Virus record (IMG/VR): IMGVR_UViG_3300032053_014799 | Coordinates: 1-23,337 of that record | From: a virus | Strand: one strand, 5' to 3' | Length of the DNA stretch: 23,337 nucleotides | Shown: positions 445 through 16,885 of the stretch, in pieces | How positions within the stretch are numbered: the first letter of the stretch is position 1 | Layout of the letters: every line of letters begins with the position of its first letter | Translations under genes and position numbers: made by a program | The notes under the pieces: model-generated | The model's database searches: none | What the model saw: the letters and a program-made list of their open reading frames with translations, nothing else | Told to the model about the DNA's origin: nothing

Positions 445-1431
445 ATGGCAGTTATATCAATAACAGTAACAGAATCATCAGAACAGATTGTCTCAGGTAT
501 ACCTAGACAAGTATCTATTGTTACTAATATTCCAAGTATGATATTTTATACTTTTGATGGTACTGATCCTACTATTAATTCTTCAATTTATATTGGCACA
601 TTAATAATGCCTACAAATAGTAGCCTTGTAATTTTAAAGATTTTCGCAACTAATGGAGTTGACTTATCGCCTGTTGTTGCAGAACATTATGAAACTAATG
701 TATTAAATAATGCCAGACTACCTAGATCAGCCACTGATGCTCCAGCAGAAAGTAGCTTACCATCATTGTACCCATTTGGTGATGGACCAATTCAACCAAA
801 TACGCACTTTTTTAATCCAGGAGATGCTGGAACTACTGTAAATAATGAGGCTATACCATCTGCATCAACAGGTTTTGATGCTTCTGGTAATCCTGCTGGT
901 TTCACTAACAAGCCATATGATTTAGAAAATTATAATGTTTTATATTCTGAAACAGATGACCAACATAAAACTGGTCGTGGTGTTGGTAATTTACCAGCCC
1001 AGGTAACAATTCAAGTAGCGCCGCCACCACCAACCGAATCAGATGTTGGGTCATCATTATTTGATCCAAGAGCTTTTGTAATTTTTCATGATGTGGCAGC
1101 GGAAAATCCAAATGACCCACCATTAATTAATAAACAGTTTTTTTCACTAGAAAATCCTGATAAAATAAGAGATGGTAATAATTATTTTAATCAAGGATTA
1201 AACGCGCCAACAACTACAGGTTCATTTTTAAGATCTCATTATAATCCAAGAGATCATACGATTACATATTATTATTATGATTCCATTGCTAATAAATGGA
1301 TTATTAGTAAAACACCATATACTCCAACAAATCCAACTCAAGGGCAGTTATATAACATAACTCTTTCTAAAGAAAGAGGCGCTGGATTTGTATTTACTTG
1401 GCAGCCCGGCGCTAGAAGAGTATTATTTTAA
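445..1431 (+). CDS. protein with chitobiase-C-terminal-like (CHB_HEX_C) domain, possible virion protein
   Basis: A 328-residue, beta-rich, Asn/Thr/Pro-rich protein. Residues about 18-85 fit the CHB_HEX_C pattern: a beta strand, then YTFDGTDPT, a Ser/Tyr turn (SSIYIG), then a strand and 'ILKIFATNG'. This small immunoglobulin-like fold occurs at the C-terminus of chitobiases and in many surface or phage appendage proteins. The rest contains a PPPPTE segment and a Tyr-rich stretch (ITYYYYDS) near 275-285; I assign no enzymatic motif to it. There is no signal peptide. A structural or host-contact role is inferred from the domain and composition only. The ATG is 1 base after the upstream stop and lacks a clear Shine-Dalgarno. 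Confidence 0.6.
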   Translation: MAVISITVTESSEQIVSGIPRQVSIVTNIPSMIFYTFDGTDPTINSSIYIGTLIMPTNSSLVILKIFATNGVDLSPVVAEHYETNVLNNARLPRSATDAPAESSLPSLYPFGDGPIQPNTHFFNPGDAGTTVNNEAIPSASTGFDASGNPAGFTNKPYDLENYNVLYSETDDQHKTGRGVGNLPAQVTIQVAPPPPTESDVGSSLFDPRAFVIFHDVAAENPNDPPLINKQFFSLENPDKIRDGNNYFNQGLNAPTTTGSFLRSHYNPRDHTITYYYYDSIANKWIISKTPYTPTNPTQGQLYNITLSKERGAGFVFTWQPGARRVLF

Positions 1432-1499: not shown

Positions 1500-2291
1500 A
1501 TGACAGACTTACGATTAAGCGTTTCTAAGACTAAGACTTTTATGAATTGTAAAAAGAAATTTGAATTTTCCTATATTATGAAATTGCCACGTAAAGAGTT
1601 TTCATATCATACTTTTGGTAAATTTGCTCATAAAATTCTTGAAGATTTTCATCTTGCTTATCTTAATGGTTCTAAAGAACCATATCATATAGTAATGTCT
1701 AAAGCATTCAAAGCTGCTGTTGAAGAATATAAAGATAAATTAACTCCTGATATGAAAAAAGAAGGTTGGGATATTATTCATGAATATTTGAAAATTGTAT
1801 CAAAAGATAAGAATAATAATTTACCATTAAATGTAATTGCCTGTGAAAAAACTTTTGAATTACCAATTGTTGGGCTAGATGGAAATATTGTTTTAAATGG
1901 TATGATAGATAGAATTCAATTAGATCCTGATGGTATACTGCATGTAGCAGATTATAAAACAACAAAAAATAAAAAATATTTAAAAGATGATTGGTTTCAA
2001 TTATTAACATATGCTTATATTCTTTTGGAAGAAGACCCAACTATTACAAAAGTAAGGGCTTCATATGTTTTATTACGTCATAATTTTGAACACATTACAA
2101 AGGAATTTAATGTAAAAGAAATTATGGAAGTTAAAAATAAATATATTGATTATGCAAATAAAATATTAACAGAAAAAGAATATGTACCCAATCCTACATT
2201 TTTATGTAATTGGTGTGAATTTCAAGATCAATGTCCAGCTGGCAAAACTCAATCAAGGTCCAATAATACTTTTGGCGAAGTAGGCTGGTAA
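1500..2291 (+). CDS. PD-(D/E)XK nuclease, RecB/Cas4-like with Fe-S cysteines
   Basis: A 263-residue protein with the order of motifs expected of RecB-family exonucleases: N-terminal LSVSKTKTFMNCKKKFEF with Cys17, the helix-borne His44 (GKFAHKILEDF), Asp137 in GMIDRI, the D-x-K pair at 151/153 in VADYKTT, and Gln167/Tyr171 on the following helix (FQLLTYAY). The C-terminus has CNWCEFQDQC (Cys236, 239, 245). Together with Cys17 this makes the four-cysteine Fe-S arrangement known from AddB, Cas4 and related nucleases. The likely role is DNA end processing in phage recombination or replication. Nothing CRISPR-related is nearby, so Cas4 identity is not implied. The upstream 68 bases are AT-rich, with only a weak GAAAGA ribosome site. 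Confidence 0.88.
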   Translation: MTDLRLSVSKTKTFMNCKKKFEFSYIMKLPRKEFSYHTFGKFAHKILEDFHLAYLNGSKEPYHIVMSKAFKAAVEEYKDKLTPDMKKEGWDIIHEYLKIVSKDKNNNLPLNVIACEKTFELPIVGLDGNIVLNGMIDRIQLDPDGILHVADYKTTKNKKYLKDDWFQLLTYAYILLEEDPTITKVRASYVLLRHNFEHITKEFNVKEIMEVKNKYIDYANKILTEKEYVPNPTFLCNWCEFQDQCPAGKTQSRSNNTFGEVGW

Positions 2292-2370: not shown

Positions 2371-2394
2371 GCTAGTTCAAAAAGGAAAAGAATA

Positions 2395-3645
2395 ATGGAA
2401 ATACAAGTTAATGAAGTGGAATATTGCAAATTAAATGTTCACTATGAAGTGTTAGCTGAGGAAATCACCTCAAAAAAAGATGAGGTCTTAAAAATTTTTA
2501 AGAATGCTCCTGTACCAGGCTTTAGAAAAGGTAAGGCTAATATGGAAGCGATTAAGTATCATTATAAGAGTCAAATCAATGATGCTCTTAAACGAGCATT
2601 GGCTGAAGAGGCTTTTCATAATACTTTATTTGAAAAAAATATTAAGCCACTTGGGTCTCCAAATTTCCAATCATTGTTATTAACTGATGGTAAATTTGTT
2701 TGTGACTTTTCAATGAACAAAAAACCAGATTTTGAATTATGTGACTATAAGAAATTAGAAATACCTATGCCACATAACTCAATGAACCCTTCAGATGAGG
2801 CTGAAAAAACCTTACAAGACCTAAGAGTTAAATTTGGAGACTCTGTTCCATTTACAGAAACTGATTTTGTTCAACAAGGAGATAGTGTTATTGTTTCTTA
2901 TGAAGGTTTTCTTGGCAATGATAGAATTGATGCGTTGTCAACAAAGCAGGGTGAATTAATTAAAATTGGCTCCTCTGATCTTGCTGAATTTGATACTAAT
3001 TTATTGGGCATGAAATTAGGTGATTTTAGAGAATTTGACCTTCTTGCACCAGAAGGTGGATTGCCATCATTATCTGGTAAAACTATACATTTTAAATGTG
3101 AGCTTACTATGGGATCAAAGCATCACCCAAGTGCTTTAGATGATGCTTTGGCTAAAAAAGTTGGCAAAGAATCATTTCAAGAATTAAGGGATGTTATTAC
3201 TGATTTAGCTATAGCTAAGGTAAAGGCTAATGTTCAACAATTAATTAGAGAGGCAGTCTCAAATAATTTAACTGCATCAAATGATTTTAAGGTTCCTGAG
3301 TGGCTTGTATCTTCAGAGGCTAGATACTTAGCTGCACATTCTAAGTTAAATTGGGAATCATTGCCAAATGAAGACAGAGAGAAATTTATTTCTCTCGCTG
3401 ACAAAAATGTAAAATTGTCTCTAATTCTTGATAGGATTAGAGATGTGGAGCCAGAAGCACAATTATCAGATCACGAAGCTTTAGAGGTTGTAAAAGGCTT
3501 CTTAAGCAAAAATATTAAAAGTATGACAATAGAAACTGTCATTAATAATATGAATAAGACTGGCGAATTGCAACTCTTGTTAGCAAGGGTTAAAGATGAA
3601 AATACTATCGATTATGTAGCAAAAAATACTAAAATTACAGATTAA
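2395..3645 (+). CDS. tig: trigger factor-like ribosome-associated chaperone
   Basis: A 416-residue protein, against about 430 in bacterial trigger factor, with all three parts in order. The N-terminal domain carries the ribosome-docking signature GFRKGKAN at residues 42-49, almost the position of GFRKGKVP in E. coli (43-50); only the final Pro is changed. Residues about 160-240 match the FKBP-type PPIase domain, starting GDSVIVSYEGF and running through GMKLGDFREFDLLAP. From about 245 on (LDDALAKKVG, then FQELRDVITD) it follows the arm and SurA-like C-terminal domain. In bacteria this protein binds ribosomal protein L23 and shelters nascent chains. Here it might act on phage proteins or displace the host factor. 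It has an AAAGGA ribosome site 8 bases upstream and its own leader. Confidence 0.9.
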   Translation: MEIQVNEVEYCKLNVHYEVLAEEITSKKDEVLKIFKNAPVPGFRKGKANMEAIKYHYKSQINDALKRALAEEAFHNTLFEKNIKPLGSPNFQSLLLTDGKFVCDFSMNKKPDFELCDYKKLEIPMPHNSMNPSDEAEKTLQDLRVKFGDSVPFTETDFVQQGDSVIVSYEGFLGNDRIDALSTKQGELIKIGSSDLAEFDTNLLGMKLGDFREFDLLAPEGGLPSLSGKTIHFKCELTMGSKHHPSALDDALAKKVGKESFQELRDVITDLAIAKVKANVQQLIREAVSNNLTASNDFKVPEWLVSSEARYLAAHSKLNWESLPNEDREKFISLADKNVKLSLILDRIRDVEPEAQLSDHEALEVVKGFLSKNIKSMTIETVINNMNKTGELQLLLARVKDENTIDYVAKNTKITD

Positions 3646-3656
3646 GGAGAATTATT

Positions 3657-3965
3657 ATGAATGATGCATTTCCAGATAAATATTTAAAGAAATTACCAAC
3701 AGGGTTTACTGACAATATGGACGCAGCAGATACTAAGGAGTTAAAGAAAGTAATTGTAGAGTCTGAAGGAAACATTTACACTATTGATAAAGCAGCTGAA
3801 GCTGACCATAAGCTTAATGGGGCAAAAGATCTTGTGAAAGAACTTTCTTCAAGCTATCGTGAAGCAAAAGGTTGTCAGACATCAAAGATTAAATATTGTT
3901 TATGGTTAATGGAAAATAGGGGTGAAAATTTAGATAATAAAGATGTAGATGACGATAAGTCATGA
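3657..3965 (+). CDS. hypothetical protein, 102 aa
   Basis: Not recognised. It is a hydrophilic, mostly helical protein with an acidic tail (NKDVDDDKS). Two cysteines lie in the second half (GCQTSKIKYC). The start is well supported by AAGGAG overlapping the upstream stop, with ATG 9 bases on. Its last four bases (ATGA) overlap the start of the next gene, so the two are translated together, downstream of trigger factor. Confidence 0.7.
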   Translation: MNDAFPDKYLKKLPTGFTDNMDAADTKELKKVIVESEGNIYTIDKAAEADHKLNGAKDLVKELSSSYREAKGCQTSKIKYCLWLMENRGENLDNKDVDDDKS

Positions 3966-4237
3966 AAATTGAAAAGTTTGCGGTTCCAGCTTGTTGCGGG
4001 AGAATCACATTCATCTATAAATTAGATAAGGGAATATCTAAGGATTTTTTGGCATCCCTTATAGGCATAGGGTTTACTGAGTTGGCTCATTTTACAAAAT
4101 CTGGCATTTTATATGTAGAAAGTCCAGAGTTAATTGTAACAGGTCCATTTGGCGCAGATAGAATTCAAATTAAATGTAGGGTAGCCAATTGTCAAGAAAA
4201 ACTTAGTAATTTCGAGGCTTTAATTTCACAGATGTAG
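3962..4237 (+). CDS. hypothetical protein, 91 aa
   Basis: Not recognised. A compact alpha/beta-looking protein with a near N-terminal CC pair (VPACCGRITF) and a third and fourth cysteine in IKCRVANCQE. The spacing could bind a metal but does not match a zinc-finger family I can name. The repeated GPFGADRIQIKC style suggests strands. It overlaps the preceding gene by 4 bases and is followed at once by the peptidase gene, so it belongs to the trigger factor-peptidase cluster. Confidence 0.65.
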   Translation: MKIEKFAVPACCGRITFIYKLDKGISKDFLASLIGIGFTELAHFTKSGILYVESPELIVTGPFGADRIQIKCRVANCQEKLSNFEALISQM

Positions 4238-4243
4238 GTGAAT

Positions 4244-4891
4244 ATGACTCATAGTACAATAAAAAAGCTATCAAGAACTCATGACTTAATATCTACAACA
4301 TATCATGAATCGGGACATACAATTTATGCATTACTTCATTCAATGAAAATTGAATCAGTTTGCATAATCGATGGTCCTAGGATAGGCGGATTTACTTACT
4401 TTGATTCTATTACTGATCTTTTAAATGAAGATCAATTAAATTCTTATAGCTCAGAATTAATTAATAAGCTTTATATAAATGAAGCTGCTATGAATTATGC
4501 TGGGTTAACTGCAGAAAAACTCTTTTATAAAAAATCATCGGGATCTAATAAGTTCCCGATGATTTTAAGAGACGGATCATCAGATGATACTTTAACTGCC
4601 GCCGCTCTTATAAGAAAGCATAATCTTTCACCCGCTGGTAAAAAAAGATATTCTTTCAAAAAGAAATTAATTAAAGAAGTATCAATTGAATTAGAAAATA
4701 ATTGGGATGCAGTATCTGCTATTGCCCATGCATTATTTGATCGTAAAAAAATATATTTTGATGATATTAAATATATTTTAATTAGAAAAACAAATAATAA
4801 AGAATTTTGGAAAAATAAATTTAAGGATATCAATTATATTTATAATAATATTGAGTCGCTTGACAAAAGTAATTTTGATAATTATACTTAA
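4244..4891 (+). CDS. stand-alone FtsH-type (M41-like) zinc metallopeptidase domain
   Basis: Numbered from ATG 4244, residues 20-25 are YHESGH, the HExxH zinc motif in the same context as FtsH (YHEAGH). Later segments also follow the FtsH M41 domain: IDGPRIGGFTYF (like PRGRxLGYT), AGLTAEKLFY (like GGRAAEELxFG) and GSSDDTLTAAALIRK (like GASNDLxxATxxAR), the last supplying the expected third zinc ligand Asp. A final ENNWDAVSAIAHAL helix matches the end of the domain. There is no AAA ATPase and no transmembrane segment, so substrate delivery must differ from FtsH. Compared with FtsH it has an extra stretch (about residues 96-112) that coincides with a 13-bp inverted repeat in the DNA. GTG 4238 is an alternative start, but AGGTG sits before ATG 4244. 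Confidence 0.8.
   Translation: MTHSTIKKLSRTHDLISTTYHESGHTIYALLHSMKIESVCIIDGPRIGGFTYFDSITDLLNEDQLNSYSSELINKLYINEAAMNYAGLTAEKLFYKKSSGSNKFPMILRDGSSDDTLTAAALIRKHNLSPAGKKRYSFKKKLIKEVSIELENNWDAVSAIAHALFDRKKIYFDDIKYILIRKTNNKEFWKNKFKDINYIYNNIESLDKSNFDNYT
4531..4566 (+). repeat. 13-bp perfect inverted repeat inside the peptidase gene
   Basis: AAAATCATCGGGA (4531-4543) and TCCCGATGATTTT (4554-4566) are perfect complements around a 10-base spacer. The repeat encodes the KSSGSNKFPMIL segment, which lies where this protein seems longer than FtsH M41 domains. It could be an mRNA hairpin, a protein-binding dyad, or the trace of an insertion. Confidence 0.7.
4860..4888 (+). promoter_or_regulatory. sigma70-type promoter for dnaE
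   Basis: TTGACA (4860-4865), a 17-base spacer, then TATACT (4883-4888): a perfect -35 and a 5/6 -10 at ideal spacing. It overlaps the last codons of the peptidase gene. A transcript would begin near 4895, leaving a leader of about 105 bases before dnaE. Confidence 0.75.
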
Positions 4892-5001: not shown

Positions 5002-7701
5002 ATGACTGATTTTGTAAGTTTGCACAATCAAACTCAATTTTCTATTTTAGACGCACTATCAACTCCTAAAGAATTATTTGCCAAAGCGAAAGAGCTTGGA
5101 CAATCAGCATTAGCTATTACAGACCATGGCACATTTGCTGGGATTTGGGATGCTTTAAAAGCATCTAAAGAGTCTGGTGTTAAATTAATTGTTGGATGTG
5201 AATTTTATTTTGTCAATGATGCATCTACATCTAATAAAGATGAAAAATTTAGACATGTTGTCCTATTAGCAAAAAATGCTATAGGTTATAAAAATATATT
5301 AACAATTAATAAATTAGGATTTGATCAGAAATTCTTCTCTGGGAAAAGAATCTATTCAATTATAGATTGGAATTTATTAGAGAAATATTCTGAAGGAGTT
5401 ATTTGTTTAACTGCTTGTGGTAATGGCATTCTTGCAGCGCCACTTATGAATAAAAAATTTGATGAAGCTAATAAAATTGTAGAAAAGCTTATTGAAATAT
5501 TTGGTGCTAATTTAGCACTAGAAGTTCAAGCAAATAATATGAAAAGAAGTTCTTCATTTTATAATAGTGAAATTGAGCAATCATTCATTAATAAACAAAT
5601 AATTAACTTAGGTAAGAAATATAATGTTAAAGTTCTTGCAACTTGCAATACTCATTATATTGAAAAAGAGCAGCATGATACTCATGATGTACTTCTTACT
5701 ATTGGTTCGCAACAAAATATATTTTCTAATTTTAGATTGAAATATCCTGTTGCTGATTTTTATCTAAAAACTGGTGAAGAGATAAAAAGTTTCTTTACCA
5801 GAAATTATGGTGAAGATTTTGCCCAAGAGCTTTGTGATAATACTTTGCACATTGCAAATATGTGTGAGCAACCTGATTGGGTAGATCCTAAATTTTCAAA
5901 TCCCTCAGGCAAAGAGCTTCCTATTTTTCCAGTTAAAGATGAATCATGTTATCAAGATTTTTTACAATGGTCTAATAATCAATTAGAAACAGTTCAATTA
6001 TTGGAAGAAGATAAGAGGTATCTTAGATACCAATGTTTTGTAAATTTTGATTCTCGTATCAAAAATGTATCATCAGATAATCTTCCAGAATATTATGCAA
6101 GAATTGATGAAGAGCTAGATGTTCTAGAATATCACGGCTTTTCAAGCTACATGCTAATTGTAGCAGATTATATTAATTGGGCAAGAAAAAATAATATTGC
6201 TGTTGGTCCTGGTCGTGGTAGTGTCGGCGGATCTTTAGTTGCATTTTTATTAGGAATTCATGAGGCGGATCCTATTAAATATAATCTTATTTTCGCGAGA
6301 TTTCATAATAAAGAAAAATCAAGCTTCCCAGATATAGATACGGATTTTGCTCCGTCTGGACGTACCAAAGTACAACATTACTTGCGTCTTAAATATGGTG
6401 AGGATCACGTTGCACATGTAAGCAATGTTAATACAATCACTCCAAAAGTATATGTTAGAGATATTGCTAGGGCATTTGAGCTTGGAGGCTCTAGGGAGGA
6501 TGCAGTTAAACTTGGAAATGATGTTGCTGGATGCATTCCAGCAGATATTCACTCTATTCATGATGCTTTAGTTAAAGTTCCTTTGTTTGCTGAATATGCT
6601 AAGAAGTATCCAGAATTTGCAAAGTTTGCGGATATTTGTGGTAAATATAGGGCATGGTCTACTCATGCAGGCGGCATTGTTATTTCTGCAAGACCACTTA
6701 CTGGACTTATTCCACTTAGAAAAGATAAAGATGGTTCGCTTGCAGTTGAATATGATAAAGAGCGAGCTGAAGAAAATGGTTTAGTGAAAATGGATACTTT
6801 AGGATTGTCAACTTTAGATATAATTAGTGATACTTATAGAATCATAAAAGAAAATGGCAAAGAACTGCCTTCTATGCCATTGAATTATGATGATCAAGAT
6901 AAGGCTGCTTATGAGTTAATAGCTAATGGTGATACATTTTGTGTATTCCAATTAGGAACAAGTGCTGGCACAATAGATCTATGTAGAAGAATTAAACCGG
7001 GCAATATTAATGATCTTGCAAATATTAATGCCTTGGCAAGACCATCAGCTAGAGATATGAGAAATGATTTTATCTTAACAAGAGATGGTAAGAAAAAAAT
7101 GGCATTATTACATCCTAAGCTTGGTAGGGCTTTTAATAGTACATATGGATTTGGTTTGTATGAAGAATGTTTAATGTATTTGGCACAAGATGTTGCCGGA
7201 TGGGGCTTACATTCTGCAGACCGTTTGCGTAAATTGACAAAAGAAAAGGGAAAGAATCCTAAAAAAGCGCAGCAATGGAGATCGGAATTTATTTCGGATG
7301 CAGTAAAGAATGAAGTTAATGAAGAAATTGCTAAGAGAATTTGGGATGAAGTAGTTGATAAGTTTCAGGGTTACGGATTTAATGCGACCTTAGCACTTTT
7401 TGAATGTGTTAATATATATACTTCAGAAGGTAAATTTTTAAAGGTAAAAACAATGGAAGATGTTTCTATTGGAGACTATGTGAGATCACGAGATGAAACT
7501 ACAAAACTAGATATTTTTGTAGAAGTTACGAATAAATATGATCATGGAGTTTTGCCTTTAGTAGAAATTGAGTTAACATCTGGAGAAATTGTAAAATGCA
7601 CTATGAACCACAAATTTCGAGTCGAGGAGAATGGGGAGATGCTTCCATTGTGGAAGATAATAAAGGAAGAGTTAACTATTATTGTCAATGATATTAAATA
7701 A
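5002..7701 (+). CDS. dnaE: DNA polymerase III alpha subunit, N-terminal part fused to N-intein
   Basis: Of 899 residues, 1 to about 795 are DnaE and the last 102 or so are an intein N-fragment. The PHP domain begins FVSLHNQTQFSILDA and includes AITDHGTFAG and GCEFYF. The palm has GPGRGSVGGSLVAFLLG and PDIDTDF (Asp446, Asp448), with the third catalytic Asp598 in VKMDTLGL. STHAGGIVIS, FQLGTSAGTIDL and the finger segment LYEECLMYLAQDVAG are also typical. The PHP metal site looks degenerate: HNQ replaces the first H-x-H and CNTHY replaces NDxHY. The extein breaks at KFQGYGFN, where bacterial DnaE continues as KSHA; that continuation is found in the next gene. The start has AAGGA 5 bases upstream. 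The gene ends in tandem stops (TAATAA, 7699-7704). Confidence 0.93.
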   Translation: MTDFVSLHNQTQFSILDALSTPKELFAKAKELGQSALAITDHGTFAGIWDALKASKESGVKLIVGCEFYFVNDASTSNKDEKFRHVVLLAKNAIGYKNILTINKLGFDQKFFSGKRIYSIIDWNLLEKYSEGVICLTACGNGILAAPLMNKKFDEANKIVEKLIEIFGANLALEVQANNMKRSSSFYNSEIEQSFINKQIINLGKKYNVKVLATCNTHYIEKEQHDTHDVLLTIGSQQNIFSNFRLKYPVADFYLKTGEEIKSFFTRNYGEDFAQELCDNTLHIANMCEQPDWVDPKFSNPSGKELPIFPVKDESCYQDFLQWSNNQLETVQLLEEDKRYLRYQCFVNFDSRIKNVSSDNLPEYYARIDEELDVLEYHGFSSYMLIVADYINWARKNNIAVGPGRGSVGGSLVAFLLGIHEADPIKYNLIFARFHNKEKSSFPDIDTDFAPSGRTKVQHYLRLKYGEDHVAHVSNVNTITPKVYVRDIARAFELGGSREDAVKLGNDVAGCIPADIHSIHDALVKVPLFAEYAKKYPEFAKFADICGKYRAWSTHAGGIVISARPLTGLIPLRKDKDGSLAVEYDKERAEENGLVKMDTLGLSTLDIISDTYRIIKENGKELPSMPLNYDDQDKAAYELIANGDTFCVFQLGTSAGTIDLCRRIKPGNINDLANINALARPSARDMRNDFILTRDGKKKMALLHPKLGRAFNSTYGFGLYEECLMYLAQDVAGWGLHSADRLRKLTKEKGKNPKKAQQWRSEFISDAVKNEVNEEIAKRIWDEVVDKFQGYGFNATLALFECVNIYTSEGKFLKVKTMEDVSIGDYVRSRDETTKLDIFVEVTNKYDHGVLPLVEIELTSGEIVKCTMNHKFRVEENGEMLPLWKIIKEELTIIVNDIK
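7393..7698 (+). other. split intein, N-terminal half (DnaE type)
   Basis: Counted from Ala798 this is 102 residues, the length of the Npu DnaE N-intein. Block A reads ALFECVNIYTSEG, with Ile8, Thr10 and Gly13 at the usual places. Block B has the T-x-x-H motif in CTMNHKF. The end, GEMLPLWKIIKEEL followed by a short tail, parallels Npu GQMLPIDEIFEREL. The expected first residue is Cys or Ser, but by alignment position 1 is Ala798. Cys802 would be an alternative first residue, but it makes block A four residues short and leaves more extra extein sequence. No endonuclease domain is present. Confidence 0.82.
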
Positions 7702-7736
7702 TAAAGTTACAGGAATATATAGAATTGGAGATGCTT

Positions 7737-7847
7737 ATGGGAAATATTAAAAGCGTAAAATATGTTGGAGATATTCAAACTTATGATTTAGAAGTTAATC
7801 ATCAAGATCATCAATTTTATTTATCAAATGGGATGCTTACATCTAAC
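7737..7847 (+). other. split intein, C-terminal half (DnaE type)
   Basis: These 37 residues match the 36-residue Npu DnaE C-intein well: SVKYVGDIQTYDLEV followed by HQFYLSNGMLTSN. Block F (YDLEVNHQDHQF) and block G ending in Asn are intact. The residue before the terminal Asn is Ser, as in Npu (ASN). The +1 extein residue is Ser (7848-7850), a usable nucleophile. Confidence 0.88.
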
Positions 7848-8981
7848 TCCCACGCCGTATTGTATTCTATGACTGGATATGAAACAGCATATTTAAAAGC
7901 ACATTTTCCAAATGAATTCTTACTTGCAAATTTAATGGCTGAAGTTAATTCAAATACTCCAGATGCAAAATCTAATATTAGTAAAATTAAAAAGGAAATG
8001 AAAGCTAATAAGATTAAAATCGTATCTCCAGATATAAATAAATCTGGATTAAATTATAATATTATAGATAATAAATTGATAACTGGATTAGATTCATTAA
8101 AATTTGTTGGTGAAGAAGCAATTCAAGAAATATTGGCAAAAAGACCATTTACTGATTTTTTTGATTTTATGTCAAGATGTGATTCTAAAGCATTAAGAGC
8201 TAATGCAATTCAAGCTTTAGCTGCCAGTGGCTGCTTAAATTCATTTAATATGTCTAGAAAACAAATGTATTTATATTGTTCTGATTATAGGAAGAAGCTT
8301 CAAACATGGTGTAAAAGACATGATCCTAAAACTGAAGTATTTACTTATCCTTGGACAAATGAACCTGAATGGAGTGTTTCAGAAATATTTGCTTTAGAGA
8401 ATTATTATTTAGGCGATACTTTTATATGTAAACCACATGAAGCATATATTAATTTCTTTAAAAATAGTGAAGATACATCTATTTCAGAATTTAAAAAGTA
8501 TAAAGATAAATCAAATATTAAATCTATTAAGGGGATAATTAAAGACTATTTTGAATTTAAAGTTAAAAAAGAAGGCAGTAAATATTATGGACAATCTATG
8601 ATCAAGGCTGTCTTTGAAGATAAAAATGGTGATAGTTGTACATTGACTATTTTTCCAGATAAATGGCAATATATTCAAGATAGAATTAAAGAAATTCATA
8701 GGAAATATGTTTTTGGTATTGGTAGTGCTCTTCATTTTTCTGGCAATACAAATAATTATGAAGATGATGTTGGGATTATTTTAGACCAGTTATATAACTT
8801 TTCGCCACCGCCTCCAGTTCCAGAAGATTTGAAAGCTAAGAAGGTAGCTCTAACAAGAACTAAAAAAATAGATAAATTAACAAAATTTTCAACTAATCCA
8901 CAGGATTTGCAACAACAATTAGAAGATGAGCTTTATGATGAAGGTTTAATTGATTTTAATAGTGATATTGAAGATAATTAA
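7737..8981 (+). CDS. dnaE: DNA polymerase III alpha subunit, C-intein plus C-terminal part
   Basis: From ATG 7737 this is 414 residues: 37 of intein, then 377 of DnaE beginning SHAVLYSMTGYETAYLKAHFP, the direct continuation of the bacterial YGFNKSHA finger motif. Then come a helix-hairpin-helix region (EAIQEILAKRPFTDFFDFM and onward), an OB-fold-like segment (about residues 265-355 of the ORF: IKGIIKDYFEF to GIILDQLY), a PPPPVPEDL linker and an acidic tail. Adding both exteins gives about 1,170 residues, close to E. coli DnaE (1,160). Start choice: GGAG 7727-7730 sits 6 bases before ATG 7737. ATG 7731 and TTG 7725 are in frame but worse placed. The reading frame differs from the first half and is separated from it by tandem stops. 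Confidence 0.92.
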   Translation: MGNIKSVKYVGDIQTYDLEVNHQDHQFYLSNGMLTSNSHAVLYSMTGYETAYLKAHFPNEFLLANLMAEVNSNTPDAKSNISKIKKEMKANKIKIVSPDINKSGLNYNIIDNKLITGLDSLKFVGEEAIQEILAKRPFTDFFDFMSRCDSKALRANAIQALAASGCLNSFNMSRKQMYLYCSDYRKKLQTWCKRHDPKTEVFTYPWTNEPEWSVSEIFALENYYLGDTFICKPHEAYINFFKNSEDTSISEFKKYKDKSNIKSIKGIIKDYFEFKVKKEGSKYYGQSMIKAVFEDKNGDSCTLTIFPDKWQYIQDRIKEIHRKYVFGIGSALHFSGNTNNYEDDVGIILDQLYNFSPPPPVPEDLKAKKVALTRTKKIDKLTKFSTNPQDLQQQLEDELYDEGLIDFNSDIEDN

Positions 8982-9026: not shown

Positions 9027-9554
9027 ATGAATACATGGAAATGTGAAATATGTTGTTTGGATCACCATTTAGAAAAATTCTATTACATATATAATGATTT
9101 GGTTTATACTTTTGGTTCGTGTGATGACTGTCGTTTTAAATTTAGAGTAAATAAATATAATCAAAAATTATTAAATAATGTAAACACTATACTGAAAAAT
9201 ACTATATCTAGCACCATTCGACAAGATCTTAAAAAAAGATATCCATTTTACATTTCTAATGTTTTAGATTATTTACCATATAGTATTTTTCAATTAAAAG
9301 AACATTTAGAAAAACAATTTGAACCATGGATGAATTGGACTAATCGTAGGAAATATATAAGTCAGTTTTGGGATGATAATAATTCTTCTACTTGGAGGTG
9401 GAATATAGATCATATAATTCCAAAATCAACTTTTAATTATAAAACTGTGATTGATGAAGATTTTCAAAAATGTTGGGCACTAGAAAATTTACGCCCATAC
9501 TCTGCTAAACAAAATATAATTGATGGTACTACTAGGATAAGGCATTTTAAATGA
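9027..9554 (+). CDS. free-standing HNH endonuclease (homing type)
   Basis: A 175-residue protein. An N-terminal C-x2-C (Cys6, Cys9) and a second C-x2-C (Cys32, Cys35) form a zinc ribbon. The C-terminal HNH nuclease core reads WNIDHIIPKSTF, then DEDFQKCWALENLRPYSAKQN, with the metal-binding Asp-His, the central Asn and the final Asn. This is the family common as selfish endonuclease genes in large phages. GGAG lies 6 bases before the ATG. It directly follows the split dnaE pair, so it may have helped spread the intein or a neighbouring allele, though it is not inside the intein as a classic homing endonuclease would be. It overlaps the next gene by ATGA. Confidence 0.9.
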   Translation: MNTWKCEICCLDHHLEKFYYIYNDLVYTFGSCDDCRFKFRVNKYNQKLLNNVNTILKNTISSTIRQDLKKRYPFYISNVLDYLPYSIFQLKEHLEKQFEPWMNWTNRRKYISQFWDDNNSSTWRWNIDHIIPKSTFNYKTVIDEDFQKCWALENLRPYSAKQNIIDGTTRIRHFK

Positions 9555-10306
9555 AAACAATTAAATTATCAACCTGGTGTGATAAAACGGGTGTCAAATA
9601 CTTAACTGCTTGGAGATGGTTTAAAAATAAAAAAATGCCAGTATATGCTTATCAGACTGAATCTGGCACAATATTGGTTGAAGATGATGAAGATAATGAA
9701 ATTATGGAAAATAAAATGGATGCTTTAGAATCAAATAATAATGTAATGACTATGTTTTTAAAGAAAACAGTAGAATTTAGTAAAAATAATTCTTCTATTG
9801 AAGATTTTGCCGCATATGTTCTTTCAAATTTTAATTTGAAAGTTAACTCAAATGCTACTGATGAGTCTTTAAAATATTCAAAAAATAAACCTTCTAAAGA
9901 GGAAATTAATAATCATTTTAAGGGGTTTATGGTTAAATCAGAAAAGCCTGTAGCAAGTATGTTTTTAGTTAATGCTGATAAGTTATCATCTCTAACAGAT
10001 GAGATTAAAAGAAATGACGAAACTACTGCTAATAATTTAGGAACTGTAATTCCTTATGAAAGTTTTTGTAATACTGTATCTTCACCTGATGCAGTTAATG
10101 AGAATACATTTTTCATTAAAAATGCTAATTTAAGTAATAACATTTCTGATACCAGAATTGGATCTGAATCATTAATTAATGATGTAATATCAGCTTCAAC
10201 TACAGTGCTTCCAGCAGGAGCTACTGGAGATTTTGTTTTAACTCAAAAAGAGCTAGAACAAAGTAATAACACTATCACTAATAAACCCACAAAGAAGAAG
10301 AAATAA
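9551..10306 (+). CDS. MerR/IS607-type helix-turn-helix protein
   Basis: The first 45 or so residues (KLSTWCDKTGVKYLTAWRWFKNKKMPVYAYQT, then SGTILV) closely resemble the winged HTH at the N-terminus of IS607-type serine recombinases and other MerR-like proteins: 'A/GI-Y-x-TAWRWxKxGK-P-AYQT-x-xGTI-V'. In IS607 this is followed by a catalytic serine recombinase domain; here there is none. Instead come about 200 hydrophilic residues, Asn/Ser/Glu-rich, ending in PTKKKK. So this is likely a DNA-binding protein without recombinase activity. It overlaps the HNH gene by 4 bases and the next gene by 1 base. What it regulates or binds is unknown. Confidence 0.7.
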   Translation: MKTIKLSTWCDKTGVKYLTAWRWFKNKKMPVYAYQTESGTILVEDDEDNEIMENKMDALESNNNVMTMFLKKTVEFSKNNSSIEDFAAYVLSNFNLKVNSNATDESLKYSKNKPSKEEINNHFKGFMVKSEKPVASMFLVNADKLSSLTDEIKRNDETTANNLGTVIPYESFCNTVSSPDAVNENTFFIKNANLSNNISDTRIGSESLINDVISASTTVLPAGATGDFVLTQKELEQSNNTITNKPTKKKK

Positions 10307-11268
10307 TGTCACTATTACAACTATTAAAAGACACTGAAACATTTAAAAAGAAATTACTTCCAAAGTATGTTGATCTAGGAACTTCTTTGGCATTATTTTA
10401 TGTTGAACCACTTAAAAAATTTATGAAGCATTTGCTTGATGTTCAAGGAATTGATTCAAATACTTATCAAAATAGTTTAAGAACTAATTTAGAAACTCTT
10501 TTAAATACCGCTAATCATCATTATATTAGTCCTGAAGTTTTAAAAATTATTCCAAAAGTAAAATATTATAATGATATCAATCATAATTTTAAAAGATCAG
10601 TGAATTCTGTATCATCAAGTTTTAGCAGTGATAAGACTTATAATGCATCTAAATCTTTCATAAAAGAGATTGATAAAAAATATAAATTAGGATTAATTGA
10701 TGGTCCTGCCGTTTATACTTTAGATAAATCTGTCTTAGAAAATGTTGCTGAAAAACTAGCTGAAAAACTAGCATTGCATAATTCGAAAAATATGGATCAT
10801 GGCGAATCTATACCAATAGCTGGAGCTAGTGGATGTACTGGACCAATTGGTTATGGCGTTCCAACTGGACCTGTTGAACCTGTTGAGACTTATGGTTTTA
10901 TAAAATATGGTGATGATACCGATAAATTATCGGATTTTGTTGTTGATGATGATGTATCTACTTTAACAAAACCTCAATATTATGATAATCCATCAATAGA
11001 AGAGGCTCGTGAAGCCGCTGATAAAATGGTTGCTCTTGGATTATTGGATGATGATCAAAATTCAATTATGACTCAAGAAAAAGAGTTTCTTACCATGAAT
11101 AGAGGTCTTTTTATATTACTTTCAAAATCACTAAAATCTCGTACTAATAAAAAAGCTTCTTCTAAAGTGAAAAGTACACCATCAAAAGTAACAAGTAAAA
11201 AGAAGATACCATTAAAACCTAATATAATTGATGGAGCTAATAAAACAAGACATAAGAGGAGAACATAA
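10306..11268 (+). CDS. hypothetical protein with short collagen-like stretch, 320 aa
   Basis: Not recognised. The N-terminal half is helical (LLQLLKDTETFKKKLLPKYV and onward). Residues 173-184 (GASGCTGPIGYG) read as four Gly-X-Y triplets, followed by a Pro/Gly segment, then an acidic region, a helical region and a strongly basic, Lys/Ser-rich C-terminus (from about 280). A 12-base tandem duplication (10747-10770) gives AEKLAEKL. Its start overlaps the upstream stop (TAATG), as does the next gene's start with its own stop, so it sits inside an operon of unrecognised proteins. Confidence 0.7.
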   Translation: MSLLQLLKDTETFKKKLLPKYVDLGTSLALFYVEPLKKFMKHLLDVQGIDSNTYQNSLRTNLETLLNTANHHYISPEVLKIIPKVKYYNDINHNFKRSVNSVSSSFSSDKTYNASKSFIKEIDKKYKLGLIDGPAVYTLDKSVLENVAEKLAEKLALHNSKNMDHGESIPIAGASGCTGPIGYGVPTGPVEPVETYGFIKYGDDTDKLSDFVVDDDVSTLTKPQYYDNPSIEEAREAADKMVALGLLDDDQNSIMTQEKEFLTMNRGLFILLSKSLKSRTNKKASSKVKSTPSKVTSKKKIPLKPNIIDGANKTRHKRRT

Positions 11269-12038
11269 TGTTATGTATGACATGTAATGCAGAAATTAAT
11301 CCAAAATGGAAACATGCAATTGAAAATAATATATGTCCAGCATGTGGGGCAGCCATTATGGACGAAGCTCTTAAAAATTTATTATCTTCTCTAAGTGAAA
11401 CAATAGAGGCTTTTAAACAATCATTTCCAGAACAATTAGATGATTGGATGCTATCTAGTTTTAATTATATTAAAACTGACTCACCTAAATTAATATCATT
11501 TGTGCCAAAACAAAGTTTTATGAAGGCAAAAAAATCTATTAGAGAAATTGATGAAAATAATGATAGCGATATAGACGGTGATGACAACTCTGTTGTACTT
11601 GCTCAGCAAGATCAGGAAGTTACAAATGAATTTTTTAAAAGGACTGATTTTAGCAAATCAGTAAATAAGACCGCTCATTTACAAGGGCTTGTAAAACAAA
11701 TTAAAAGAACTGGTGCCCCTATGGCTGGTGGTAATGGCGGTGGCGCGGCTGGTGGATTGATCTCTGCAGAAATGTTAGAGAATGCAGACCCTGAAGCGAT
11801 TGCTGAGATGCAATCAATGTTATCTGGCGAAAATATTGCATCAGCAATGCTGCCCGAATCGGATGGGGAAGATGATGATGTTCACCAAAACATAGCTTCA
11901 GCTATGGCAAATAAGTTTAAAGGCAATGGGTCTTCTGTTAATCCAAAAGATATGGAAACATTAAGAAAATTGCAAGCAGGACCTTCGGCAGCAAGAAGAA
12001 ATTCAGCAAGTGGCAAAGGTGCCTTTTCAAGGACATAA
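11268..12038 (+). CDS. zinc-ribbon protein with Gly-rich linker, 256 aa
   Basis: The N-terminus holds a short zinc ribbon: C-x2-C at 3/6 (MLCMTCNAE) and C-x2-C at 23/26 (ICPACGAAI). A helical segment, an acidic Asp/Asn stretch near 93-107 and a Gly-rich linker at 149-163 (GAPMAGGNGGGAAGG) follow. The hexapeptide NIASAM occurs twice (189-194 and 208-213), in helices separated by an acidic loop. The C-terminus is basic and Ser-rich. The composition suggests a flexible adaptor or nucleic-acid-binding protein; no catalytic motif is visible. The start overlaps the preceding stop (TAATG). Confidence 0.7.
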   Translation: MLCMTCNAEINPKWKHAIENNICPACGAAIMDEALKNLLSSLSETIEAFKQSFPEQLDDWMLSSFNYIKTDSPKLISFVPKQSFMKAKKSIREIDENNDSDIDGDDNSVVLAQQDQEVTNEFFKRTDFSKSVNKTAHLQGLVKQIKRTGAPMAGGNGGGAAGGLISAEMLENADPEAIAEMQSMLSGENIASAMLPESDGEDDDVHQNIASAMANKFKGNGSSVNPKDMETLRKLQAGPSAARRNSASGKGAFSRT

Positions 12039-12961: not shown

Positions 12962-14155
12962 ATGAGTAAAGAATTAGATGCATTTTTTAAAAGTTTTGCA
13001 GAGGCAGATGGCGAATTAGATTATAAAATGGCGCATGAAACTGTAAGCGAAAAGGTTCCAGTTATTTCAACTGGATCCCTAGCTTTAGATGACGCATTAT
13101 CTTCTGGTGGGCTTCCAAAAGGAAGATTAATTCAATATTATGGGGCAGCAGGATCTGGTAAAACATTATTAGCCATGATTGCTATGATGGAAGCTCAAAG
13201 AGATGATCCAGAAGCACAACAAGTTTTTATTGATGCAGAAGGAACTTTTGATCCTGCTTGGGCAGAAATTTTAGGAGTAGATACCAGTAAAGTTATTCTT
13301 GTTGAAAAGGATACTGCTGTTAATGGTCGTAAATGTTTTGAAATGCTTTTAGGTGTTCCTAAAGAAGATAAGAAAACACATTTGTTTGTCGGCAAATCTA
13401 AAGAAGGTTTACTTGATAAAATTAATTCTGGAGAATTCAATATTAATCTAATTGTATTGGATTCATTAGGTGCTATCATTCCGCCAGGCGAAGACACTTC
13501 TGCCATTGGCAAAATGAATATGGCTTTGTTAGCTAGGTTTCTAACTACAACATTTAGAAAATTATCATTAGAATTAAATAAGGCAAAAGTTCCATTTATC
13601 ATTATTAATCATAAAAGAGATAATATGGATCCATATGGAGCGGATCACACTTTCTCTGGAGGAAATACATATTCACACTTTTTAAGTGCAAATATTTATT
13701 TTGAAGCAGTTCAAAGAAAAGATGCAATGATTGTTGATGAAAAGGAAAATAAAATAGGTCATCCATTAAGAGCTACAATAGAGAAAAGTAAGTTTGGTCC
13801 ATGGCCACGCAAGTGTGAGTTTAAAATCAATTTTGGAATTGGTGTTATAGATAAACATGAAGAAATTGCCCAGTTAGCATTAGATTATAATGTTGTCACA
13901 AAATCATCTACTGTTTCTCATGATTATGGCGATAAAACATGGGTTGGTTTTCCAAAATATTGTGCAGCAATTGCGGCTGATGCTGAATTAGCTAAAGAGT
14001 TAGTTTTAAAAATTAGTGAGGCTAGAGAATCTAAATTAGATGTTAAAAGGGCTGAGCAAGATGCTTTAAAAACTAAATCACTAAAAACTAGTGATGATGC
14101 TGATGGCGAATCTAATGATAAACCAAAAAAGAATAAAAAGGTAAAAAATGACTAA
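12962..14155 (+). CDS. recA: RecA/UvsX-like recombinase
   Basis: A 397-residue protein with the RecA core. Walker A is GAAGSGKT at residues 61-68, the catalytic Glu93 sits in VFIDAEGTFDPAW, and Walker B is NLIVLDSLGAI. A DNA-binding loop and Gly-Gly segment read NHKRDNMDPYGADHTFSGG. The N-terminal helix and the STGSLALDDALSSGGLPKGR segment are also standard. The enzyme forms ATP-dependent filaments on ssDNA and pairs homologous strands, in phages supporting recombination-dependent replication and repair. The C-terminal tail is charged and Lys-rich (DKPKKNKK), unlike the acidic tail of bacterial RecA. It has AGGAG 4 bases upstream and ends 8 bases inside the next gene. Confidence 0.93.
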   Translation: MSKELDAFFKSFAEADGELDYKMAHETVSEKVPVISTGSLALDDALSSGGLPKGRLIQYYGAAGSGKTLLAMIAMMEAQRDDPEAQQVFIDAEGTFDPAWAEILGVDTSKVILVEKDTAVNGRKCFEMLLGVPKEDKKTHLFVGKSKEGLLDKINSGEFNINLIVLDSLGAIIPPGEDTSAIGKMNMALLARFLTTTFRKLSLELNKAKVPFIIINHKRDNMDPYGADHTFSGGNTYSHFLSANIYFEAVQRKDAMIVDEKENKIGHPLRATIEKSKFGPWPRKCEFKINFGIGVIDKHEEIAQLALDYNVVTKSSTVSHDYGDKTWVGFPKYCAAIAADAELAKELVLKISEARESKLDVKRAEQDALKTKSLKTSDDADGESNDKPKKNKKVKND

Positions 14156-14562: not shown

Positions 14563-15303
14563 ATGAATACATTCGGTGAAGTTAGTTTTTTAGATGATAT
14601 TTATGGTGATAATAAAAAAACAGGGAATAATAAAGATTTATTCCTTCGTTTAAAAGAAGGTTCTAATGAACTTAGATTAATTACTGTGCCACATCAATAT
14701 ATTGTGCATAAATATAAGGCTGATGGCGACAAAGGTTATGGCTCTAAAGTGATGTGTTCTGCAACACATGGATCATGTCCTGTCTGTGATATACCAGGTG
14801 AAGAGCCTGGTAAGCCAAAGTTTCCAGCTAAACTACGCTGGTTTTTTGGAGCAATAAATCGTGACACTGGCAAGACTCAGATTTTAGATGTTGGGTTCGC
14901 AGTATACCAACAATTAAGAAAATGGGCAAAAAATCCAAAATGGGGTGATCCAGCTAAATATGATATTGATATTGTTGTAGATCCGAAAGGGGGTGCTACC
15001 GGATACTACACTGTTCAAGTTTGTTCAAAAGAACCACTTTCTGCCGAAGATCAGAAAAAGAAAGATGAATTCGATCTAATTGATCTAAAACGTAGGTGCT
15101 CACCACCAACCGTTGAATTTACTCTTTCTAAGCTAGAAAAACTTAATGCAGAATTTCCAGGAAATAGCAATGCTGGCAAAACAGCTAGCCCAGGAAAAGG
15201 CAGTGGTCCAGTTAAAACCGCTGCACCCGCACCAGTTAGTATGAGTGCTGATGAAGATGATAGCCCAGATTTTCCAGCATATTCAACAGACAATACAGTT
15301 TAA
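14563..15303 (+). CDS. ssb: ssDNA-binding protein, gp32-like
   Basis: A 246-residue protein shaped like T4 gp32-type phage SSBs. The N-terminal segment (FLDDIYG) precedes an OB-fold core with FLRLKEGSNELRLI and HQYIVHKY. A zinc cluster follows (Cys65, His69, Cys72, Cys75 in MCSATHGSCPVC), then FPAKLRWFFGAINRDTGKTQILDVG and a helix. The C-terminus is a low-complexity linker rich in Gly/Ala/Pro and an acidic tail (ADEDDSPDFPAYSTDNTV), which in this class contacts the polymerase, primase and recombinase. It binds and protects ssDNA during replication. It has AGGAG 7 bases upstream, its own strong promoter, and a strong terminator directly after it, so it is an independently transcribed gene. Confidence 0.88.
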   Translation: MNTFGEVSFLDDIYGDNKKTGNNKDLFLRLKEGSNELRLITVPHQYIVHKYKADGDKGYGSKVMCSATHGSCPVCDIPGEEPGKPKFPAKLRWFFGAINRDTGKTQILDVGFAVYQQLRKWAKNPKWGDPAKYDIDIVVDPKGGATGYYTVQVCSKEPLSAEDQKKKDEFDLIDLKRRCSPPTVEFTLSKLEKLNAEFPGNSNAGKTASPGKGSGPVKTAAPAPVSMSADEDDSPDFPAYSTDNTV

Positions 15304-15374: not shown

Positions 15375-15926
15375 ATGCCAATAGTTTTATCATTTGATGT
15401 AAGTTCTTCTTGTATAGGTTTTGCCGTATTAAATGTTGATATAGATAAAAAGATTATTAAATATAAAGATTCCGGTTATTTTAAACCACTTAAAACTGGA
15501 ACAATATTTGAAAGACTAATAGATAGTAGAAATAAAGTATTAGATATATTTACAAAATATAATCCAGATCTTATTGCTATTGAAGATATTATTCAATTTA
15601 TGCCTGGATCATCAACCGCCAAAACTATTATTATGCTAACTACTTTTAATCGTATGATTGGTTTATGTTCATATGATTTTAAAAAGAAATCTCCAAAATT
15701 ATGTAGCGTAATGTCAATAAGACATGGTTTAAAATTAAATAAAATATTTCCTAAAAAAGAAGAAATGCCAGAGCTTGTGGCTCATCATTTAGGAATTAAA
15801 TTTCCATATGAGAAAAACAAAAAAAATAATCTTAAAATTGAGAACTATGATAGAGCCGATGCAATTGCTGTAGCATTATATTATTCATTTATTTTGATTG
15901 GTAAAATTAAGGAAAAGAAGAAATGA
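15375..15926 (+). CDS. ruvC: RuvC-like Holliday junction resolvase
   Basis: From ATG 15375 this is 183 residues with the RuvC catalytic set at matching spacing: Asp8 in VLSFDVSSSCIGF, Glu70 in LIAIEDI, and the D-x-x-D pair 159/162 in YDRADAIAVAL. The RNase H fold and length (E. coli RuvC is 173) fit. It should cleave Holliday or other branched junctions, clearing recombination intermediates before packaging. TTG 15366 is an in-frame alternative, but MPIVLSFD is the usual beginning. There is no Shine-Dalgarno, and the gene starts only 16 bases past the terminator, so it is probably translated from read-through or from a promoter I cannot see. It overlaps dnaJ by 4 bases (ATGA). Confidence 0.85.
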   Translation: MPIVLSFDVSSSCIGFAVLNVDIDKKIIKYKDSGYFKPLKTGTIFERLIDSRNKVLDIFTKYNPDLIAIEDIIQFMPGSSTAKTIIMLTTFNRMIGLCSYDFKKKSPKLCSVMSIRHGLKLNKIFPKKEEMPELVAHHLGIKFPYEKNKKNNLKIENYDRADAIAVALYYSFILIGKIKEKKK

Positions 15927-16885
15927 GATTACAAGAAGCATATTCAACACTTGAGTTATCTTCAGATGCAACCCCAGCGGAAGCTAAGAAAAAATATCGA
16001 GAATTAAGTAAGAAATTTCATCCTGACATTAATAAAGAGCCTAATGCAGAAGATAAGTTTAAAAAAATTAATGAGGCTTATTCTGTAGTTCAATCTGGTA
16101 AAGATAATGAATTACAAAATTTCCAGAGCAATCCAGGCATAAATATAGAAGATTTTGTTAATCAACATTTTAAAAAACAAAGAATTGTTAGAGAAATTCA
16201 TAATAGTGTAATCATAACATTTAAAGAAGCTGTCTTTGGCTGTAAAAAAGATATTCAATATAAAAGAAATATAAAATGTGATGCCTGTAGTGGGCAGGGG
16301 CAAAAGGTAGAGTCTAATGGATGTTTAGCTTGTGGTGGTACTGGTAAAACAGTAATGAGACAAGGTCCAATGACATTTATTGGACCTTGTAGTACTTGTA
16401 AAGGTAATTTAAACATTAAGCAATGTAATACGTGTGGTGGCAAATCTGTTTTAGAAGCTGAGACTTCTATTGCTGTTACTGTTCCTGGTGGAGTTGAGAA
16501 TGGAAATGTACTTAGAATTTCTGGTAAGGGAGAATATGCTGGAACAATGCAAAATCCATTTATTAATCAATTAATAGATCAATACACTGATATGTTTTTG
16601 CACCTTACTGTTGTTCAAAGTTCTGATTTTAAGGTAGTTGACAATACTATTATAACTAATTATGATATTTCTTTATTAGATGCATTAGGCGGCTGCACTG
16701 TAGAAGTTATAACATTAGATGGTCAACAAACGATACAGGTCCCACCTAGTTCTAAAAATAAAGATATAGTATCAATACCAAATTTAGGAGTAGGTAGAGT
16801 GGGTCCACATAATGTTATCCTCAATGTTAATTATCCAAAAGATATCGATAAGCTAGTTGATTATTTAAAAAATAAGGATTTATAA
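15923..16885 (+). CDS. dnaJ: DnaJ (Hsp40) co-chaperone
   Basis: A 320-residue type-I-like DnaJ. The J domain holds HPD at 33-35. The zinc domain has four CxxC motifs: 119/122 (CDACSGQG), 134/137 (CLACGGTG), 156/159 (CSTCKG) and 168/171 (CNTCGG). The C-terminal substrate domain begins VPGGVENGNVLRISGKGEY. The Gly/Phe-rich linker of bacterial DnaJ is essentially missing, and the last zinc repeats are slightly irregular (CSTCKGN). The J domain stimulates the ATPase of Hsp70; no dnaK is in the window, so it probably recruits host DnaK. Lambda and P1 replication depend on host DnaJ/DnaK, so a phage-owned DnaJ beside replication genes is plausible. The start overlaps the resolvase stop. Confidence 0.92.
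   Translation: MRLQEAYSTLELSSDATPAEAKKKYRELSKKFHPDINKEPNAEDKFKKINEAYSVVQSGKDNELQNFQSNPGINIEDFVNQHFKKQRIVREIHNSVIITFKEAVFGCKKDIQYKRNIKCDACSGQGQKVESNGCLACGGTGKTVMRQGPMTFIGPCSTCKGNLNIKQCNTCGGKSVLEAETSIAVTVPGGVENGNVLRISGKGEYAGTMQNPFINQLIDQYTDMFLHLTVVQSSDFKVVDNTIITNYDISLLDALGGCTVEVITLDGQQTIQVPPSSKNKDIVSIPNLGVGRVGPHNVILNVNYPKDIDKLVDYLKNKDL
16638..16666 (+). promoter_or_regulatory. sigma70-type promoter upstream of the primase pair
   Basis: TTGACA (16638-16643), 17 bases, TATGAT (16661-16666): a perfect -35, a 5/6 -10 and ideal spacing. It lies within dnaJ and would transcribe the zinc-ribbon and primase genes from about 16673. Confidence 0.6.

Follow-up and report, generated by a model that had tools for sequence, protein, structure and literature searches.

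The window, by which we mean the whole stretch of DNA analysed, is an IMG/VR virus record of 23,337 bases with approximately 30% G+C, and its main genes are all on the + strand. The open reading frame (ORF) at 2395..3645 (+) starts with ATG, encodes 416 amino acids, and matches trigger factor (TF), a chaperone that meets new proteins at their exit from the ribosome, by the TIGR00115 and Pfam profiles and by an AlphaFold2 (AF2) model. A Shine-Dalgarno-like AAGGAA, read directly from the sequence, lies 5' of its start (2382..2387, +). The encoded protein comprises a predicted N-terminal ribosome-binding domain (residues 1-112; 2395..2730, +), an FKBP-type PPIase domain in which F199 and F233 are kept and the equivalents of Tyr221 and Phe177 are replaced (residues 152-243; 2848..3123, +), and a C-terminal substrate-binding domain (residues 244-416; 3124..3642, +), which was also recognised in the AF2 model.

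Directly upstream of the TF gene is a PD-(D/E)XK (RecB/Cas4-like) exonuclease gene (1500..2291, +; Pfam PDDEXK_1, 3e-31). Downstream, beginning 11 bp past the TF gene, are two genes for conserved proteins with no assigned function, of approximately 100 residues (3657..3965, +) and 91 residues (3962..4237, +), followed by a stand-alone M41 (FtsH-protease)-like gene with an HESGH motif and without an AAA domain (4238..4891, +; Peptidase_M41 E 3.7e-5, below the cut-off). A DnaE polymerase in two ORFs with split-intein halves (5002..8981, +), a UvsX/RecA recombinase (12962..14155, +; phrog_97, E 1e-56), a phage single-strand DNA-binding protein (14563..15303, +; phrog_8542 and phrog_1192) and a DnaJ-type co-chaperone (15923..16885, +; Pfam DnaJ and DnaJ_C) follow, the last being the folding partner within the window itself.

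Identity of the trigger factor and its phage context

The NCBIfam model TIGR00115 'tig' matched the window TF over model positions 2-409 of 410 (E 4e-54), and the score of 184 bits passes the equivalog cut-off of 180.2 bits by a narrow margin. Pfam Trigger_N (7e-21, residues 1-134) and Trigger_C (4e-9, residues 262-409) were both over their cut-offs, and FKBP_C, at 17.3 bits, was below its cut-off of 21.1. The phmmer comparison with E. coli TF (1w26) gave E 2e-13. The AF2 model, for which 41 viral homologues were the input, had a mean pLDDT of 87.1 and a pTM of 0.69, and the best 12 Foldseek matches to it in the PDB were all TFs (1w26, E 9e-23). Against E. coli TF the model gave a VIA Z of 19.1 over 402 residues with an overall rmsd of 10.2 Å, which indicates that the domains are placed differently in the model; fitted separately, the N-domain superposed at 2.3 Å over 114 residues (1oms) and the FKBP-type domain at 1.8 Å over 87 residues. 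Pfam, AF2 and Foldseek agree on the domain order of TF, namely N-domain, FKBP-type domain and C-terminal arm. The dN/dS against the nearest relative was approximately 0.13 (0.096/0.754), indicating purifying selection. The ORF is a full-length three-domain trigger factor, as the first-pass annotation had claimed, and the search against TF family profiles that it proposed gave the full-length TIGR00115 match above. The PHROGs cluster phrog_26774 matched residues 1-348 (E 3e-27), so a viral cluster of TF-like proteins already exists in that collection, where it carries no function label. A fold search of BFVD with the model gave no match at E <= 0.001, which is weak evidence that no TF-like model is prominent among catalogued viral proteins.

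A further 46 TF loci, with TF identities of 33-84%, were recovered from IMG/VR by profile search, and the gene order was nearly identical in all 47. The upstream part runs thioredoxin-like protein, CHC2 primase zinc finger, SbcD, SbcC, nucleotide kinase, two unknowns and exonuclease; from TF on, the order is TF, two small unknowns, M41-like protease and DnaE, then RecA/UvsX, SSB, RuvC and DnaJ. The exonuclease was present in 47/47 loci, the 100-residue protein in 45/47, the 91-residue protein in 47/47, and the M41-like protease in 42/47. TF is thus placed among replication and recombination genes, not virion genes. In most of the 47 loci the gaps on each side of TF are approximately 10-15 bp, and these short gaps, together with the fixed order, suggest that the block is probably one transcript.

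Several other features of the block were observed. The M41-like gene, two genes downstream of TF, is missing from the most divergent members. A protein with a Chitobiase C-terminal/Fn3-associated domain (window 445-1431) sits amid the replication genes in 46/47 loci. The first DnaE ORF of the window (5002-7701) ends with an intein N-half and the second (7725-8981), in another frame, opens with a C-half, the matches to TIGR01445/TIGR01443 being weak. The same split was found in at least 10 relatives (loci L037/L107, L043, L091, L092, L096, L109, L114, L120 and L123), and in some relatives approximately 1-2 kb separates the halves; the DnaE of L111 is one continuous ORF of 1630 residues, and that of L002 has no intein. 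Free-standing HNH genes occur at varying spots of the block, some adjoining TF (window 9027-9554, L002 8932-9798, L004 19481-20311, and after TF in L024/L042). In the 473-kb phage, a TnpB/IS605-OrfB-like gene recognised by eye lies just past DnaE (L004 16182-17393), and a PolyA-polymerase/tRNA nucleotidyltransferase head domain lies near terminase and portal (L346 13239-13994).

The first-pass annotation had raised the possibility that the contig is bacterial. This is contradicted by the phage-type neighbours and by the hallmark genes of the 473-kb relative, in which TerL (phrog_675, E 4e-62), portal (phrog_16240, E 2e-54) and tail sheath (phrog_2839, E 1e-14) indicate a lineage of jumbo phages with contractile tails. 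Divergent matches to tail sheath were obtained in 10/20 records. Within the 23-kb window itself, no TerL, portal or tail sheath and no tRNA were found. Relatives with the same gene order are on contigs of up to 481 kb, these being contig sizes and not those of established complete genomes; IMG/VR contigs may be incomplete. No close cultured relative was found when DnaE was compared with GenBank phages, among which the best match was approximately 34% identical.

Distribution and phylogeny of the viral trigger factors

Because a search with TF alone would be circular, two neighbours, the exonuclease and DnaE, were used as bait. The exonuclease profile recovered 80 loci with TF in 77, the other three being outsiders of 24% identity, so that same-family exonuclease loci had TF in 77/77. 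The DnaE profile recovered 77 loci with TF in 68; 7 of the remaining 9 have DnaE at the contig edge, and among loci with enough upstream sequence TF was present in 68/70. Some loci are near-identical contig duplicates (e.g., L003 and L004), so the numbers of loci do not equal numbers of independent species; for TF, distinct proteins were counted. TF was absent from the available flank of two distant DnaE loci, L125 and L126 (40% DnaE identity). A Zn-ribbon neighbour was dropped as bait because it was too variable. These results show that TF is a core gene of this jumbo-phage lineage and not a stray acquisition. The searches used short peptide patterns that miss distant relatives, and TF is rare in viruses only at this sensitivity.

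A FastTree phylogeny was built from 81 bacterial and 87 viral TFs, and 86 of the viral sequences fell into a single long-stemmed clade (support 1.0). A second phage group (L299-L305, L118 and L121), which has the same cassette without the M41-like gene and the two small genes, forms a sister clade, and all 94 viral TFs of the main and sister clades group at 0.977. Under a site-mixture model in IQ-TREE, the main clade (V1) and the sister clade (V2) were supported at 100/100 and 98/96, respectively; in 96% of bootstrap trees none of the 32 bacterial TFs fell among the viral ones, the branch itself receiving 63/95. The tree rules out a recent acquisition from one host, and we consider that one old acquisition would be its simplest reading. 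A different phage (L310, a 63-kb contig with a DnaB-type helicase) has TF between the helicase and a RecB-like exonuclease (9980-11278). This TF falls outside the main viral group, which indicates that TF entered phages more than once.

GenBank phage records were rejected as a source of phage TF, since the three that were opened (Acinetobacter phage MD-2021a, MT837294 and Staphylococcus phage SA 1306 Kay) were bacterial tig loci with clpP/clpX. In IMG/VR, ten TF matches were bacterial-like and unrelated to this group; most of them lie at the edge of a contig, and clpP adjoins four.

Docking loop and PPIase site

The docking signature of the window TF, GFRKGKAN (residues 42-49; 2518..2541, +), was located by aligning the protein with E. 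coli TF and with 87 viral TFs, and corresponds to the bacterial GFRxGxxP. The E. coli loop is G43-F-R-K-G-K-V-P50; GFRKGK thus occupies residues 42-47 in the window TF and 43-48 in E. coli, which agrees with the nearly identical residue number given by the first-pass annotation. Changing FRK to AAA in this loop lowers the ribosome-bound occupancy of E. coli TF from 85% to 20% (PMC11725819). Over the 86 main-clade TFs, R45 was kept in 86, G47 in 80, F44 in 76 (replaced in the other 10) and K48 in 75, and G43 was kept in 87/87 viral TFs in an earlier alignment.

In the window TF, GFRxGK is present and the final Pro is Asn, N49 occupying the position of Pro50. The 81 bacterial TFs were picked by a GFR-containing pattern, so the sample leans to the most phage-like TFs and is 81/81 at those positions by construction; the Pro is absent in 2/81 of them too. 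P50 was retained in 26/86 main-clade TFs, and Ser (31) and Thr (22) were the commonest replacements. The change from Pro to Asn had been noted correctly in the first-pass annotation, which suggested that it may tune ribosome binding; as most of the viral clade lacks this Pro, usually with Ser or Thr instead, the Asn is weak evidence for tuning in the window TF.

The key PPIase residues of E. coli TF are Glu178, Ile195, Phe198, Tyr221 and Phe233 (PMC9527764), and at these positions the window TF has D, L, F, G and F, respectively. Among the 86 main-clade TFs, F198 was kept in 78 and F233 in 71; Tyr221 was absent from the clade, with Gly in 41/86, and the Phe177 position was mostly Val or Ile. 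In the sister group, Tyr221 and Phe217 were kept in 8/8 and Phe177 in 7/8. As judged from these residues, the PPIase pocket appears to have been eroded on the stem of the main clade while the docking loop was spared. The main clade probably has little or no PPIase activity, and full PPIase function is doubtful; in the chloroplast CrTIG1, site substitutions reduce PPIase activity and need not abolish it (PMC9527764). A modified PPIase, one of the roles offered by the first-pass annotation, is the weakest of its options, since the Tyr221 and Phe177 equivalents are replaced in most of the main clade. The FKBP-type domain as a whole is conserved as well as the N-domain (mean pairwise identity 0.45), so a structural or client-binding role probably remains.

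Proposed function and comparison with known systems

The company of TF was surveyed in the large relatives. Peptide deformylase was present in 20/20 records tested, with its three catalytic motifs in most, and 26/27 deformylases had a C-terminal SEC-C metal-binding tail; such fusions (e.g., L002 241-780, L013 1004-1531 and L004 1345-1911) carry a possible ribosome tether. Ribosomal protein bS21, a DnaJ domain and GroEL were found in 18/18, 18/18 and 0/18 large relatives, respectively. Distances from TF were measured in 13 genomes. On the upstream side, deformylase is at 9-12.5 kb and bS21 at 12-16 kb, except for two genomes in which bS21 is at 25 and 32 kb; on the downstream side, DnaJ is at 11-16 kb. 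In the large genomes tested, TF, bS21, deformylase and DnaJ form one collinear block, which, like the core status of TF, had escaped the first-pass annotation. In the window, DnaJ is inside, and the bS21 and deformylase positions are beyond the left end. Such linkage shows that the genes are inherited together and does not show that their products act together. In SecA, the SEC-C-type metal-binding domain attaches to ribosomes close to uL23 (PMC6620043), the TF docking protein, and by this analogy the exit tunnel may be the destination of both deformylase and TF.

The identity of the protein, its phage genome, its core status, the single deep clade, the conserved docking residues and the collinear cassette are the observations on which our reading is based. 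We believe, with a probability of approximately 70%, that this TF is a dedicated viral nascent-chain chaperone, a vertically inherited core gene product that binds at the exit tunnel of the host ribosome, in competition with host TF or in its place. As gene order suggests, TF would be made from the phage replication-gene block. The conservation of the GFR loop suggests that the N-domain would then dock on uL23 at the host exit tunnel, where it would replace host TF or compete with it. Nascent phage polypeptides would be shielded in a cradle of the C-terminal and FKBP-like domains, as the complete C-domain suggests, and we speculate that they would be handed over to phage DnaJ acting with host DnaK. 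That the protein binds ribosomes, displaces host TF, and holds and hands over clients is thus proposed from sequence. It would act beside phage bS21 (initiation) and the SEC-C-tailed deformylase (N-terminal processing) as a ribosome-associated set from start to exit. Points that weigh against this reading are the Asn at the signature Pro, the replacement of F44 in 10 of the 86 main-clade TFs, and the position of TF amid replication and recombination genes, where it may have a special client. The broader idea that these phages make host ribosomes phage-dedicated at both ends, with bS21 at the mRNA platform, the SEC-C-tethered deformylase and TF at the exit tunnel, and hand-over to viral DnaJ, so that initiation, N-terminal processing and co-translational folding would all be in the hands of viral proteins, is tentative, and we would put it at somewhat less than an even chance.

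The close packing of TF with genes for DNA replication and recombination would also suit a ribosome-independent assembly chaperone that acts post-translationally on a single phage complex or a small number of them (replisome, recombination or virion proteins); a role for TF away from the ribosome and in assembly is already known (title of PDB 3gty/3gu0, whose fold matches closely), and here the PPIase pocket is remodelled while the domain itself is conserved. We consider this unlikely, because the docking loop, which would be unneeded off the ribosome, is the best-conserved part, with G43 and R45 invariant in the main clade, and because the linkage with bS21 and deformylase suggests a role at the ribosome. 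The retained docking residues, the eroded PPIase site and the nearby host takeover genes (bS21) could fit a decoy that occupies uL23 and blocks host TF, SRP or SecA, halting host protein biogenesis without folding clients; the N-domain would suffice for this purpose, and the complete, full-length and constrained client-holding C-terminal domain makes it improbable. A bacterial contaminant, or a host gene of no special function that was captured recently, which the clpP/clpX-bearing GenBank records and the bacterial-like IMG/VR matches could suggest, is refuted at this locus by the 47 loci of the same gene order, the clade stem of 0.7-1.1 changes per site, the identity of at most approximately 28% to bacterial TFs in full-length matches and the phage hallmark genes of the lineage, and its probability is negligible.

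The window TF resembles bacterial TF (tig; E. coli 1w26) in the three-domain order, the full-length TIGR00115 match, the place of GFRKGK and the retention of F198 and F233. In contrast to bacterial TF, the viral proteins are only approximately 18-28% identical to it, approximately 70% of the main viral clade has lost the signature Pro, other residues stand at the Tyr221 and most of the Phe177 equivalents, and the gene is in a phage replication operon instead of tig-clpP-clpX. The literature search for phage-encoded trigger factor gave nothing relevant, and co-mentions of jumbo phage and trigger factor concerned TF as a solubility tag. The protein family itself is known; what is new is that TF is a core gene here, that it forms a viral subfamily and that it belongs to this cassette.

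Huge phages have been reported, in the main text of Al-Shayeb 2020 (PMC7162821), to carry similar translation-hijack sets of bS21, peptide deformylase, and initiation and elongation factors; that main text names no trigger factor or chaperone and no fixed bS21-deformylase-TF-DnaJ block. Known phage takeover covers initiation (bS21), deformylation and elongation, and a nascent-chain chaperone is absent from the model in that main text. With a core TF in phages of 350-480 kb, co-translational folding becomes a directly testable part of viral takeover. Similarly, in bS21-encoding Bacteroidetes phages (Chen 2022, PMC9723584), phage bS21 is thought to bias ribosomes toward phage mRNA, and protein-folding chaperones and Clp are mentioned in the genomes; unlike here, bS21 is among virion genes and not in a TF block, and the text names no trigger factor. 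The chloroplast TIG1 (PDB 7zgi, PMC9527764) is likewise a TF adapted to its lineage, with substitutions in the PPIase site and a docking motif that varies in algae, but it is a plastid protein, keeps the Tyr221 equivalent, and has a measurable PPIase activity that is 100-fold lower. The viral TFs offer a natural series, with docking kept and the isomerase site lost on one branch, which bears on the role of the TF PPIase domain.
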